NCBI GenBank assembly: GCA_913048295.1 | Contig: CAJWWK010000010.1 | Location: 1-49,551, forward strand | Reading direction: 5' to 3' | Length of the DNA stretch: 49,551 nt | Source: an uncultured Dehalococcoidia bacterium | GTDB lineage: Bacteria; Chloroflexota; Dehalococcoidia; Lucifugimonadales; Lucifugimonadaceae | Part shown: positions 9,694 through 16,931 of the stretch, in pieces | Layout: the number at the start of each line of letters is the position of its first letter | How positions within the stretch are numbered: position 1 is the first letter of the stretch | Notes under the pieces: model-generated | What the model saw: only the letters and a program-made list of their open reading frames with translations | The model's database searches: none | Told to the model about the DNA's origin: nothing | Program-made: the position numbers and the translations under genes

Positions 9694-10512
9694 CTAACTC
9701 AGAGCGTTCAGCAATGCAGGAAGTGCCTGACCTGCAGTGGCGCGCAAAGATACCTCACTTAGCGGGGTCAATTTCGTCTCCGTGGGGTTGATTTCGACGA
9801 TCTTTGCCCCCGCGGCCTCCGCTATCCACAGTAGTCCGCTGGCCGGCCTGACTGTCGCCGATGTCCCGATCGCCAGCACGCAGTCGGCGCTGTCGATTTC
9901 CGCCCTCGCTGCCGCCATCACATCGTCGGGTATCGGCTCGCCGAACATCACCGTATCGAACTTGACGAGACCTCCGCATACGTCACACGGGTCGGGAGCG
10001 AAGAGCGGCACTATCTCGCCCAGCGATTCGCGGTTGCCGCATTCCACACATCGCAGTTTTTGCCGGTTGCCGTGAATTTCGACCAGGTTTACAAGACCCG
10101 CTTTTTCGTCGAGCCCATCGATGTTCTGAGTAATCACCGAATCCAACACCCCGATCCGCTCCATGTCCACCAGGGCGAAGTGACCGGCATGGGGTTTGGC
10201 GTTTGCCAGGGCTTCGCGTAGTTCCATTACGTGGGAGTCGATCTTTCCGTTTGTCCTGCGGTTCCACCAGCCGACAGGGTCTTTGCGGAACTGGGCATAA
10301 CCGTCCATCGGTGGAGTTCCGTGGCGCGTCCACAGGCCGTCAGCACCTCTGAAGGGCGGGATACCGCTTTCGACCGATATTCCCGCACCGGTCATCGCGA
10401 CGGTGTAACTGGCCTTACGGATGATGCCTACAATGTCGTCGATTTGATCCAGCTGATCGGGATTGAGGACTGGCGATCCCCGAGTTTTAACTGGAGGCAC
10501 TGGCAATGGCAT
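9694..10512 (-). CDS. NAD-dependent protein deacylase, Sir2 family
   Basis: A 272-residue sirtuin. It has GAGIS (42-46) and PFRG for NAD binding, TQNID (128-132) and the catalytic His in EIHG (H147). A zinc ribbon with Cys at 155, 158, 176 and 179 follows, then GTSATVRPA and EINP near the end. It removes acyl groups from protein lysines using NAD+, yielding nicotinamide and O-acyl-ADP-ribose. The first about 20 residues are extra and Pro-rich; a later GTG could also start it. The ATG lies inside the last codons of recF (26-base overlap), so the two are surely cotranscribed. Acyl preference cannot be told. Confidence 0.92.
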   Translation of the reverse strand: MPLPVPPVKTRGSPVLNPDQLDQIDDIVGIIRKASYTVAMTGAGISVESGIPPFRGADGLWTRHGTPPMDGYAQFRKDPVGWWNRRTNGKIDSHVMELREALANAKPHAGHFALVDMERIGVLDSVITQNIDGLDEKAGLVNLVEIHGNRQKLRCVECGNRESLGEIVPLFAPDPCDVCGGLVKFDTVMFGEPIPDDVMAAARAEIDSADCVLAIGTSATVRPASGLLWIAEAAGAKIVEINPTETKLTPLSEVSLRATAGQALPALLNALS

Positions 10513-11815
10513 CCTGTGTCACCCGTCCGTTCATGACGGTATAAATATCGGCTTTGTCAAGAAATTCCGAAGGCACGATTCCTGGCTCGGTAGCGGTCAG
10601 CAGAACCTGCTCGTGCTCACTTGCGGCCGCAAGGACGCGCTCCCGTCGCGCAGGGTCCAGTTCCGAGAGAACATCGTCGAGAGCCAGCACCGGTGTGCGA
10701 CCGGTTGAGCGGGTGACGAAGATGGCTTCGGCAAGTTTCAGCGAGAGCGCAATTGTGCGCGACTGGCCCCTGGATGCGAACTGCCCTGCCAGGGTGTCGT
10801 TCAAGTAAATCATGAGGTCGTCCCGGTGCGGCCCGACAACGGTCGCGCCCTGTGCAACTTCCCTTCGCCGCACCGCCGGAAGGGCCTTCGCAATCTCCTG
10901 CTCAATCGTTTCGGAGTTCATCGAACCGACATCGGGTGATTCTTCCGATCTGGTACCAGGCGATGCTGTGATTCTTGGCCGGTATTCAAGTTGCAGTCTA
11001 CCGCCGTCCGAAAGATCGGCGTGCGCCGGTACGGCATGTTCGTTAAGGCCGTCGACCGCCCTTCTTCGAGAATCGGTGACTCTTGATCCTTCATATGCCA
11101 GCCTTTCGTCCCAGAACGTCAGCTCTTTGTCTCCTGCAACGCCCTCGCGGATTCTCCTCAGCAGCTGGTTCCGCTGACTGACTACCTGCCCGTAGCGTTG
11201 GAGCGACTTCAGGTAGGCGGGGTCCGATTGTGCAATCAGGATGTCGAGGTACCTGCGGCGCCTTCCTGGCGAGCCATGGATAATCTCGAGGTCGTCGGCC
11301 TCGAAAAACACCACATTCAGGCTGCCAACGAAGTCGGTCGCCGAGCGCTTGATCCCGTTTACGCGGAGACCTTTTCGAAATCCTGCCGATGCAGATGCTG
11401 CTGCTGTTACATCGACGTCGATCTGGGCCTGGATGGTCGTATCGCCGTCACGACCCACCCCGAGCACCTGCATGTGACCGCCAGATTCCGCCAACGACCA
11501 GTTGACCAGTTCACGATCGTTGGAGGCGCGGGAGGATTTGGCGATCGCAAGCATGTAGGCGGCTTCGAGCAGGTTGCTCTTACCCTCGCCGTTGTTGCCC
11601 TGGAAAAGGGTCAGACCGGGGCGCAGCTCCAGATCGGTGTTCGTGTGATTTCGAAAACCGGTAAGCGAAAGCCGAGATAGGTGAATCGAAATGCCTCTGA
11701 GTTTTTGCCGTTGAAACGACCGCTGGTAATAGTGGGCGCGGTCCAGGTTAGATGCCTGGCCAGACCGGGTCCGGTCCTGCCCGAATTCTAGCATCGCGCA
11801 GTTCATGGTCCACAA
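10487..11815 (-). CDS. recF: DNA replication and repair protein RecF
   Basis: A 442-residue SMC-like ATPase that, with RecO and RecR, loads RecA at gaps. It has Walker A GNNGEGKS (73-80), the ABC-type region and the Walker B-like LALDDVLSELDP near the C-terminus. Standard RecF proteins are about 360-390 residues and begin just before the strand that here is HLSRLSLTGFRN at residue 45. The first about 42 residues are an extra, basic, low-complexity lead, and there is no ATG, GTG or TTG between residue 8 and the conserved core. Either this is a real extension or translation starts at a rare codon. recF is not next to dnaA/dnaN here but heads a sirtuin and aminotransferase run. Confidence 0.92.
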   Translation of the reverse strand: MWTMNCAMLEFGQDRTRSGQASNLDRAHYYQRSFQRQKLRGISIHLSRLSLTGFRNHTNTDLELRPGLTLFQGNNGEGKSNLLEAAYMLAIAKSSRASNDRELVNWSLAESGGHMQVLGVGRDGDTTIQAQIDVDVTAAASASAGFRKGLRVNGIKRSATDFVGSLNVVFFEADDLEIIHGSPGRRRRYLDILIAQSDPAYLKSLQRYGQVVSQRNQLLRRIREGVAGDKELTFWDERLAYEGSRVTDSRRRAVDGLNEHAVPAHADLSDGGRLQLEYRPRITASPGTRSEESPDVGSMNSETIEQEIAKALPAVRRREVAQGATVVGPHRDDLMIYLNDTLAGQFASRGQSRTIALSLKLAEAIFVTRSTGRTPVLALDDVLSELDPARRERVLAAASEHEQVLLTATEPGIVPSEFLDKADIYTVMNGRVTQDAIASASS

Positions 11816-11989: not shown

Positions 11990-12819
11990 ATGCACAGGGT
12001 GGTTGGGTTCGAGCTTATCTTCCTATTGCTTGGCTACCTGGCGTGGCTGGCAATCGGCGGTTCGACATTTTCACAGGGAGAGACAGTGGTGATTAACCGG
12101 GCAAACGGAGCCGACTCTTCAGTACCGACGCCAATGGAGCTGAACATTGTGACGCTGCTCGGGTTCGATGGGATCCAGTCGATCGAAGGCCCACGGTTCG
12201 TGGCCGCAGAGGTTGCGGACGAGACTTATGACCCGGACTGAACTCATACTCGGCGTGGAGATCGAAGGCGATGCCCGGGCCTACTCGGTACCGCTGCTCA
12301 GTCGCGACGAAATAGTCAACGATGTCGTGGGGGGAAACCGATCGTGGTTACATGGTGACCGCTCTGCTTTACTGGAATCGGGTATTCCAGAGAGATCGGC
12401 GGCAGGGGTTATCGGCGAGTCGAACCGAGACGATCGGCTGGCAACGAAGCAGTTGGTCCTTGGACTGGGTTTCGACGGCGATCCGCTGGCGTTCCCGCAC
12501 TCTCAACTGCGTGCCCAGCAGTTGTGAACCTCGTGCAGCCGGGCGGTGCGGCTGTAATTTACTTCGACCCGGCTACCGATACCGGTTTGGCGTTCAGTTC
12601 AGTCGTTGGGGAGCGGGAGTTGAGTTTCCAGCTAGTAGATAAGGACGGCAAAGAATGGCTGCAGGACGACCAGACGGGCACTCTGTAGGTGCCGTTTACA
12701 GGCCAGGCATTGAGTGGCGAGCTTGCTGGCTCGACTCTTGAACGGTTGCACGCGGTCAATGTGTTCTGGTTCGCATGGAGCGATTTTACCCTTCGAACGA
12801 GATCTGGGGGTTTGGCTGA
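11990..12819 (+). pseudogene. DUF3179 domain (seleno)protein, decayed
   Basis: Pieces of a DUF3179 protein can be followed through shifting frames. An N-terminal membrane segment and the GFDGI/PRFV region come first (11990-12238). ELILGVEIEGDARAYSVPLL then VNDVVGG follows (12240-12334, frame moved by one extra T). KPIVVTW-TGA-PLCFTG comes next (12335-12376, one base lost in a G run). Then AAGVIGESNRDDRLATKQLV (frame changed after an apparent deletion), VVNLV...YFDPATDTGLAF (12521 on), TGTL-TAG-VPFTGQAL (Trp to amber at 12686) and NVFWFAWSDF are read. The last frame is restored only if a lost T near 12785 is added, ending WGFG at 12819. At least five lesions and an internal loss of roughly 100 residues make it non-functional. 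The UGA at 12356-12358 sits where family members have Cys or selenocysteine. Confidence 0.8.
12356..12390 (+). promoter_or_regulatory. Selenocysteine UGA with bacterial SECIS-like hairpin (in DUF3179 pseudogene)
   Basis: The TGA at 12356-12358 is flanked by TW before and PLC after. A perfect 7-bp hairpin CTGGAAT-CGGGT-ATTCCAG occupies 12372-12390. Its loop starts 20 bases after the UGA, and one of the first two loop bases is G. Known bacterial SECIS elements have a loop 16-37 bases from the UGA, a loop of 3-14 bases and a G among its first two positions, so this one fits. Confidence 0.65.
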
Positions 12820-12890: not shown

Positions 12891-12914
12891 TAGCGTTATT
12901 TCTGGCGGTGCGAT

Positions 12915-13430
12915 CTGGATATCAAGTCACTGATTCGCGACGTACCCGGCTACCCGGCCGAGGGCGTTATATATCGCGACCTGACACCCGTGTGGGCGAA
13001 TCCTGAAGCCATGCGGTACATCACCGATACGGTCGCCGACCATCTGGGATCATTGAACACGCAGGCCATCGCGGCAATCGACGCCCGGGGATTTATTTTC
13101 GGAGCTCCGGTTGCCGGGCGCCTCGATATTCCCTTCATCCCGATCCGAAAAGCCGGGAAACTCCCGCCCCCGGTTGTGGGTACCGATTACGATCTTGAGT
13201 ACGGGACGGGACGGCTTGAAGTAAGGACAGGTGCTGTCGAGGGAGGGCAGCGGGTGGTGGTGATCGACGACCTGCTGGCGACCGGCGGATCGGCCGGAGC
13301 GGGGGTGAAGTTGATCACTTCACTGGGTGCGAATGTTATTTCAGTCACCGTTCTGGTAGAACTGGAATTCCTGAACGGACGAGCCGCTCTACCAGCCGAT
13401 CTAGATGTGTTCAGCATGGTGCAGTACTAG
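12915..13430 (+). CDS. apt: Adenine phosphoribosyltransferase
   Basis: A 171-residue PRTase that makes AMP from adenine and PRPP in purine salvage. The PRPP-binding loop is VVIDDLLATGGSAGAG, and the N-terminal DIKSLIRDVPGYP block matches the family's conserved start. That block lies upstream of the first ATG/GTG/TTG-initiated frame (13011 or 12990). Just before it, in frame, are only a TAG and the codons CGT TAT TTC TGG CGG TGC GAT. The only reasonable initiator is therefore CTG at 12915, with a GG-rich sequence 6-12 bases upstream. A start at 12990 would cut off conserved residues. The HAD gene starts two bases after the stop. Confidence 0.85.
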   Translation: MDIKSLIRDVPGYPAEGVIYRDLTPVWANPEAMRYITDTVADHLGSLNTQAIAAIDARGFIFGAPVAGRLDIPFIPIRKAGKLPPPVVGTDYDLEYGTGRLEVRTGAVEGGQRVVVIDDLLATGGSAGAGVKLITSLGANVISVTVLVELEFLNGRAALPADLDVFSMVQY

Positions 13431-15827: not shown

Positions 15828-15879
15828 GGGGACGGGACCACAATTGCGACTCTCACAAAACGGTGTGGGAAACGTCCCC
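15828..15879. repeat. Inverted repeat GGGGACG ... CGTCCCC between mazG and selD
   Basis: Arms GGGGACG (15828-15834) and CGTCCCC (15873-15879) enclose an imperfect hairpin with further partial pairing next to the arms. It fills the gap between the convergent mazG and selD and its right arm touches the selD stop codon. A GGGGACG-type arm recalls REP elements mobilised by RAYT transposases, but no such transposase is in the window. It may serve as a two-way terminator. Confidence 0.45.
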
Positions 15880-16931
15880 TATTTCCGAACGACGATCGTC
15901 CCTGCGTCACCCGTTACGACTTCGCCAATTACTTCACTGTAAAGTGTTTCATTAGCAATCAAACTCTTTACAAGGGCGCCCGCACGGTCCTCCGGAACTG
16001 AAATCAGCATCCCGCCAGAGGTTTGTGCGTCGGCCATAAGTACGAAATCGAGCTCGGACACCCCGTCTTCGAGTGAAACGGCATCGCCAAGAGCCTCCAT
16101 GTTTCGGCTGGTACCGCCCGAAACGTTCCCGGCTTCGAGAAGCTCTTCAACGCCGGGGAGAACTGGCACTGCCGACCGGCTCAGGACAGCCGAGAGCCCG
16201 CTCGCTTTCATCATTTGCGACAGGTGGCCCAGCAGACCAAATCCGGTCACATCGGTGGCAGAGCTTACACCCACTTCGAGCATTGCGTTTGCCGCCCCGC
16301 GGTTCAGAGTAGCCATCGATTGGACTGCGTTACGAATCACCTCTTCCGGTGCAGTTCCGGCTTTCCCGGCAGTTGTAATGACCCCGGAGCCAATCGCCTT
16401 GGTCAGCACCAGCACGTCGCCGGGCTGGGCGTTTGCATTCGTGATCTGCTCCCCCTGGGTCACGATTCCTGTGACTGCCAGTCCGTACTTGGGCTCTTTA
16501 TCGTCGACCGTGTGGCCACCAATGATCAGGATTCCTGCTTCTTCTGCTTTTACCTGCCCACCCTCGAGAACCCGTGCGATCACGTCCGGGCCGAGATCCC
16601 TCGGGAAGGCTGCAATATTCAGCGCGGTAAGGGGAATCCCACCCACGGCGTAAACATCGCTCAGGGCATTTGCCACCGCGATCTGGCCGTAATCGAACGG
16701 GTCGTCGACAATCGGTGCGAAGAAGTCGAGCGTGAGTACGAGAGCGACGCGTTCATCTATCCGGTAGATGGCCGCGTCATCTCCGGTTTCGAGTCCGACC
16801 AGCACGTTTGGATCAGTGATGGCCGGCGTTGGCAGCTTGCCTAAAACAAGGGCAAGTTCGCTCTGGCTGAGCTTCCCAGCTCAACCGGCGCAGGACGCCA
16901 GTTCGGTTAGTCGTACAGGTTTATCGTTCAT
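15879..16931 (-). CDS. selD: Selenide, water dikinase (selenophosphate synthetase), itself a selenoprotein
   Basis: A 350-residue enzyme making selenophosphate from selenide and ATP, the selenium donor for Sec-tRNA. The start is the ATG at 16931 (MNDKPVRLTELASCAG), followed by an in-frame TGA as codon 17 and then AGKLSQSE. Sec17 and Lys20 match the catalytic Cys17/Lys20 of the E. coli enzyme. The frame then continues without a break: GLETGDDAAIYRI, DFFAPIVDDPFDYGQIAA-type metal site and a C-terminal TSGGML motif. If the UGA is read as stop, only a 308-residue frame from a GTG at 16805 remains, lacking the active site. The gene implies a working Sec system whose selA, selB and selC are elsewhere. 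Confidence 0.93.
16836..16883 (-). promoter_or_regulatory. Sec UGA codon of selD (16881-16883) and downstream hairpin
   Basis: After the UGA the message contains CTTGCC-(9 bases)-GGCAAG, a perfect 6-bp stem (16851-16856 with 16836-16841) whose loop starts 30 bases after the UGA, within the known bacterial range. The loop begins CT rather than containing G in its first two bases, so the match to the E. coli-derived SECIS rule is partial. A closer hairpin, TGAGCT-GGGA-AGCTCA, overlaps the UGA itself. Which of the two, if either, is used cannot be told here. Confidence 0.5.

Follow-up and report, generated by a model that had tools for sequence, protein, structure and literature searches.

The locus studied here raises the question of whether an in-frame UGA in a broken gene is a selenocysteine (Sec) codon or simply one more of its lesions. 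The window, meaning the whole stretch of 49,551 nucleotides that was analysed, comes from G000, a draft assembly of 2.43 Mb in 110 contigs with a completeness of 89%, and carries a DUF3179 (PF11376) pseudogene on the plus strand at 11990..12819, with a start and an ancestral stop (12817-12819) that align with those of an intact orthologue in the congener G010. The reading we favour, at a probability of roughly 0.93, is that of a DUF3179 selenoprotein gene recently inactivated in a SAR202 (Candidatus Lucifugimonas-type) genome, whose intact relatives are predicted to read UGA as Sec.

In the frame of position 11990 the gene translates as ...GGKPIVVTW*PLCFTGIGYSRE. Frame translation and orthologue comparison place the TGA (12356-12358, plus strand) at the U of a UxxC motif, as the ancestral Sec codon, and the TGC at 12365..12367 (plus strand) encodes the partner Cys of U-P-L-C; the UGA that the earlier note had reported within KPIVVTW-UGA-PLCFTG was thus borne out. 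Its description of a perfect 7-bp SECIS-like hairpin at 12372..12390 (plus strand) held as well, on folding and covariation: the stem strands (12372-12378 and 12384-12390) enclose the loop CGGGT (12379-12383), 13 nt separate the UGA from the stem and 20 nt from the loop, and the second loop base is G. Two segments match PF11376, with 29.9 bits at 12533-12790 and 26.8 bits at 12225-12338 (44.3 with neighbours) against a cut-off of 27, while the intact orthologue scores 297 bits.

The pseudogene is flanked upstream by an open frame for a RecF/SMC-N type ATPase (10487..11815, minus strand) and downstream by one for an apt-like phosphoribosyltransferase (12894..13430, plus strand, start approximate), both conserved neighbours. 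About 3 kb away lies selD, encoding selenide, water dikinase (15879..16931, minus strand), which is itself a UGA gene, open but for one in-frame UGA (CAG-U-AGK; 16881-16883). The open reading frame list ends selD early at this UGA (15879..16805).

Aligned to the intact G010 orthologue, with which it shares three DNA blocks of 78-84% identity, the window copy has six lesions besides the UGA; the earlier note had counted at least five and judged the gene dead. Four are single-nucleotide indels: an insertion near 12239, where the resulting +1 frameshift produces a TGA stop (12239..12241, plus strand), and deletions in a G-run near 12330, near 12524 and near 12785. The others are a stretch of about 257 nt missing by comparison with intact orthologues, with its junction at 12399..12400 (plus strand), and a nonsense TAG at 12686..12688 (plus strand), where G010 has TGG. 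UGA aside, the reading frame is interrupted in the window copy and open in six congeners. The window copy is therefore a relic of a DUF3179 selenoprotein family member and not a working one. Two further DUF3179 copies of this genome are also damaged: the second UGA copy (contig C35) retains UGA and hairpin and has lost about 172 nt near the C end, and the Cys copy (C22) is divided between two frames.

Across 19 genomes of the genus, this locus (the TWUPLC type) is open in G005, G010, G012, G013, G014 and G017, each with a single in-frame TGA at this column and at the same genomic place. These six contradict both the idea that the TGA is confined to the pseudogene and the idea that intact relatives never have Cys or UGA there. 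The apt gene lies downstream of all six, and the RecF-like gene lies upstream of five, whereas the G010 copy sits where its contig ends; apt also adjoins the copies of G001, G004 and G011, and the RecF-like gene is found on the opposite side wherever the sequence extends that far, G008 included. The G014 protein is identical to that of CP046147, and G014 is most likely Candidatus Lucifugimonas marina JH1073, which is cultured and has a closed genome; NCBI places its genus in Chloroflexota, Dehalococcoidia, SAR202 cluster.

In the full set, DUF3179 was matched in 31 of the 40 genomes searched, and most matches were analysed, with some end fragments left out (e.g. G017:C2, G011:C15). The column held U at 42 sites (broken copies included), C at 25 (counting the Cys members L048 and L131, which were excluded from the hairpin counts and the tree) and neither at 16. 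Within the genus the U form comes in four types, TWUPLC, VFUTLC, TYUILC and T/SWUPIC. A separate scan of named genomes used the Cys-coded patterns TWCPLC and GVSGKLIM, so it carries no bias toward U; it covers Chloroflexota and says nothing on other phyla. From the best 80 of its 121 relatives, by title all Chloroflexota, 79 loci yielded 80 sites with 76 U, 3 C and 1 R; one U belongs to the broken G004 copy, the R to the broken G011 copy, and L191 gave no site. The alternation of U and C that the earlier note had proposed is thus seen in both sets. On a tree whose 126 rows comprise 98 with U, 22 with C and 6 with neither, five state changes suffice, three of them single Cys rows inside the U of the TWxPLC clade; this tree was quick, midpoint-rooted and weak in its deep branches, and omitted eight U sites that were broken or partial, four C sites from broken copies, and identical cores. 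On this comparative evidence the UGA codon is ancestral, and its predicted reading as Sec is correct by descent.

Fourteen of the 16 sites with neither residue read SPVTYS (L003, L065-L069, L071-L073, L136, L139, L159, L163 and L164), a form that persists in the genus down to its smallest genomes, in which the search matched no U form. A further DUF3179 copy, L147 (G014:C1:2387000-2389000), contains two in-frame UGAs eight codons apart (VGULPVLVSWUPICYTG), which may reflect a fresh nonsense codon or something odder.

A bacterial SECIS is a stem-loop right after the UGA, with a small loop some 16-37 nt away and a G in the first two loop bases; the window hairpin, with a loop CGGGT that begins 20 nt past the UGA, follows this rule. 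Folding 12350-12400, as the earlier note suggested, gave an unexceptional energy (z = -0.57; 56 of 200 dinucleotide shuffles fold equally well). Fold energy, being uninformative here, was dropped as proof of the hairpin. For the 45 nt following the UGA, the fold z was -2.7 against 500 mononucleotide shuffles. That the hairpin is beyond chance follows instead from intact orthologues sharing both UGA and hairpin and from the covariation of the helix. A free-loop score separated the classes poorly (p <0.1 at 57% of 42 U sites and 26% of 23 Cys sites), with mean fold z of -1.48 at U versus -0.17 at Cys sites. We then applied a fixed rule, set post hoc once the free-loop data were known: a stem of at least 5 pairs and a loop of 3-8 nt beginning 18-23 nt past the UGA, with G in its first two bases. 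Such a hairpin was present at 75 of the 76 named U sites (best 80 of 121 relatives) versus 12.7% of shuffles, and at 33 of the 42 U sites in the 40-genome set, which overlaps the named one, versus 13.4% of shuffles, in agreement with the earlier note's expectation that intact genes carry it. At Cys sites it was found in 1/3 named and 2/23 from the 40-genome set (3/26 together). Seven of the nine U sites without it are of the U-P-I type, and in the tandem pair of L192 the hairpin is present in the UGA copy and absent from the TGT copy.

Covariation was assessed in 20 sequences (the window and 19 of the 42 U sites, chosen for one loop register). Pairing was retained in 95% of helix cells, 4/7 pairs had changed on both sides, and the covariation score was 0.42 versus 0.09, with 0/500 shuffles as high. 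When the strands were slid, 21-54% of cells paired, a comparison that favours the unslid version because the structure was taken from the window. On comparative evidence the hairpin is a SECIS; as it is also part of the coding sequence, constraint on its codons acts in addition to the pairing.

The machinery for Sec appears to be alive in the window genome. The genes selA (C56, open frame of 473) and selB (C22, open frame of 635) score over cut-off, as does the selD of the window, and the DUF3179-to-selD distance is about 3-4 kb also in G010, G005, G004, G011 and G001. The tRNA-Sec is represented by two overlapping pieces, one at an end of contig C18 and the other at an end of C36, whose anticodon arm shows TCA; ARAGORN made no call for either piece, and it calls the whole G010 gene tRNA-SeC (tca). 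Loss of the pathway had been suspected since Rfam tRNA-Sec matches resembled tRNA-Ser, Leu and others, and was ruled out by selA and selB, a pattern search for the TCA arm, the contig-end tRNA-Sec pieces (L008, L174) and the selD of the window. With sel genes and tRNA-Sec pieces present, the death of the gene was not caused by Sec loss. At the assembly break the tRNA-Sec is followed by a tyrosine integrase gene (PF00589; L008 1-1173 = G000:C36; end of L174 = G000:C18), an arrangement that would fit an integrative element with its target site in the tRNA-Sec gene.

Three reduced genomes of the same family (G022-G024, 1.3-1.5 Mb) have no selA or selB over cut-off, no tRNA-Sec and no DUF3179. Sec genes occur without DUF3179 in G028, G032, G035-G037 and G039, so the family is dispensable. 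G026 has a UGA DUF3179 gene (L064), selA, selB and selD, with no tRNA-Sec at E 1e-9, and G003 and G008 have selA and selB but show neither a selD over cut-off nor a tRNA-Sec arm; these missing parts are probably draft gaps.

The decay of the window gene looks recent, since its changes are mostly silent. For this count we used codons in agreement between sister and outgroup: the window lineage shows 29 silent and 10 replacement changes, and that of its intact sister G010 shows 21 and 5. With outgroup G017 the replacement excess is not significant (p 0.76), so some of the 1-nt indels could be errors in this one assembly; other outgroups gave p 0.21 (G013), 0.27 (G014), 0.18 (G005) and 0.02 (G012). 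In the window/G010 comparison first-position changes were raised (32/234 vs 8/210, p 0.0002) and second-position changes were not (10/237 each). The block at 8.3-19.7 kb is colinear with G014, and for the downstream portion of this block the same holds of the G010 contig.

The same locus is broken in three other genomes of the genus (G001, G004, G011), and the lesions differ among the four copies. The G004 copy retains UGA and hairpin and has an additional TGA and a frameshift. The G001 copy retains the UGA, its partner Cys is gone and two of the seven hairpin pairs are broken, although a different pairing nevertheless places it within the loose hairpin rule. In the G011 copy the UGA has become CGA and the partner Cys has become Ser. 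The G008 locus ends at a contig edge and its UxxC reads UPLG, and eight drafts of the 19 gave no match to the locus. It thus appears that within a single genus one locus decayed in four genomes, each with lesions of its own, with a common first hit possible. The earlier note was right that the Sec signature survives in a dead gene, but the survival is no paradox: the decay looks recent, and the worse wrecks G001 and G011 show a damaged hairpin or CGA. Persistence of UGA and hairpin requires no function; they are left over by inertia. The genus therefore offers, in genomes that still have sel genes, successive stages in the decay of one Sec gene: intact, broken but retaining both UGA and hairpin, retaining the UGA beside a damaged hairpin, and without the UGA.

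Could the UGA be a chance nonsense mutation of a Cys codon in a dying gene, with the hairpin a coincidence? A single substitution makes TGA from TGC or TGT, the fold energy is ordinary (z -0.57) and the gene has other stops. We nevertheless consider this explanation hardly credible, and it was rejected on finding intact UGA orthologues: in six congeners the frame is open but for this same UGA, U occupies 76/80 named sites (best 80 of 121 relatives), and the hairpin covaries and accompanies the UGA. Just as implausible is a suppressor tRNA that inserts Cys or Trp at the UGA in place of Sec. Cys tRNAs with a UCA anticodon are known elsewhere, and the presence of Sec in the product is deduced from sequence. 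Against this stand the tRNA-SeC (tca) called by ARAGORN in G010 and the same arm in the window genome, the presence of selA, selB and selD, the SECIS-like hairpin beside the UGA, and the G010 and G013 genes, which also terminate at a TGA stop.

Somewhat less remote, yet still improbable, is the proposal that the gene is intact and its frameshifts are sequencing or assembly errors of the draft genome. Two of the 1-nt gaps fall within G or T runs, substitutions remain mostly silent, and the lesioned C22 and C35 copies fit the same proposal. However, neither the ~257-nt gap nor the TGG to TAG change is a run-length error, the seven neighbouring genes examined are all open and all match their families, and other lesions break the same locus in G001, G004 and G011. 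A recently inactivated selenoprotein gene remains the preferred reading. In intact relatives, the mRNA hairpin just past the UGA would recruit SelB with Sec-tRNA, and UGA would be read as selenocysteine, placing a Sec-x-x-Cys pair on a beta-rich, two-repeat protein that is anchored at its N terminus and probably exported. In the window genome, indels, a deletion and a nonsense codon destroyed this copy, and the Sec pathway stayed.

The protein probably faces outward or is exported with an N-terminal anchor, as orthologues in the genus start with a hydrophobic stretch (MHKVVGIGLIALLIGYVLWIA in G014). An AlphaFold model of the intact orthologue is beta-rich (mean pLDDT 88.6). When the G013 protein was compared with the G004 locus, the C-terminal half of the former aligned with the N-terminal half of the latter (E 4.8e-13), which indicates two repeats, with UxxC confined to the first. 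Foldseek against the PDB gave high-probability matches (0.90-1.00) to NirD-like and Rieske proteins, with E of 0.006-0.18, none <0.001, and TM of 0.43-0.63 on small targets and ~0.2 on the query. By sequence the PDB held no useful match, and a Rieske profile comparison (13 Rieske sequences from 30 loci) gave one alignment, to the second repeat, at a probability of 0.8%. The Rieske ligands C-x-H and C-x-x-H are absent: the invariant columns of a 24-sequence alignment are U/C-P-L-C, with no His. The modelled fold is thus a weak hint of a Rieske-like link. A BFVD fold search with the DUF3179 model gave one match, to an Indivirus giant-virus protein (A0A1V0SD44), at E 3.8e-8 with TM 0.60 on target and rmsd 9.7.

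The most likely role of the Sec/Cys pair would be thiol/selenol redox chemistry outside the cytoplasm. A wider scenario is possible, though we hold it doubtful: DUF3179 may be a tandem-duplicated Rieske-like beta fold that abandoned metal binding, the Sec-Cys pair of its first repeat taking over the redox work, and Chloroflexota including SAR202 may have made Sec usual in one subfamily and multiplied it into several exported paralogues, one near selD, of which copies are now repeatedly lost.

The link between DUF3179 and selenocysteine is already known. The DUF3179 domain (PF11376) appears as a UxxC/T prokaryotic selenoprotein family in tables of PMC9312934 and PMC13188914, and a passage of the former credits the family to Zhang and Gladyshev 2007 and an Olavius algarvensis symbiont; an Idiomarina DUF3179 protein is listed in PMC9230427 as predicted cytoplasmic-membrane. 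No word starting with 'selen' occurs in the main text of PMC10444878, which reports SAR202 cultivation, and our literature searches on selenoproteins or selenocysteine, SAR202 and Chloroflexota returned no published account of a DUF3179 selenoprotein in SAR202. New as far as searched are the Sec-dominant SAR202/Chloroflexota clade, the covarying SECIS and the decay of one locus by differing lesions in four genomes. A little-described tabulated family is now tied to a culturable ocean clade, with a SECIS tested by covariation, and the function of DUF3179 becomes testable in an isolate with a closed genome.

Among known systems, Rieske-type ferredoxins and NirD share a fold resemblance only, with neither sequence match nor ligands, and DUF3179 is not a member of that group. 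Cys-form DUF3179 proteins (CPLC) are of the same family, have CxxC at the same column and occur as paralogues in the same genomes, but they use a Cys codon and show the hairpin at only 2/23 and 1/3 sites. Closest are the tabulated DUF3179 UxxC/T selenoproteins, which belong to the same Pfam family with U first in UxxC, whereas the window copy is broken and its host is a SAR202 genome. Compared with that tabulated family, the Chloroflexota subfamily is mostly U (76/80 sites, best 80 of 121), and a single genus has four types of U site.
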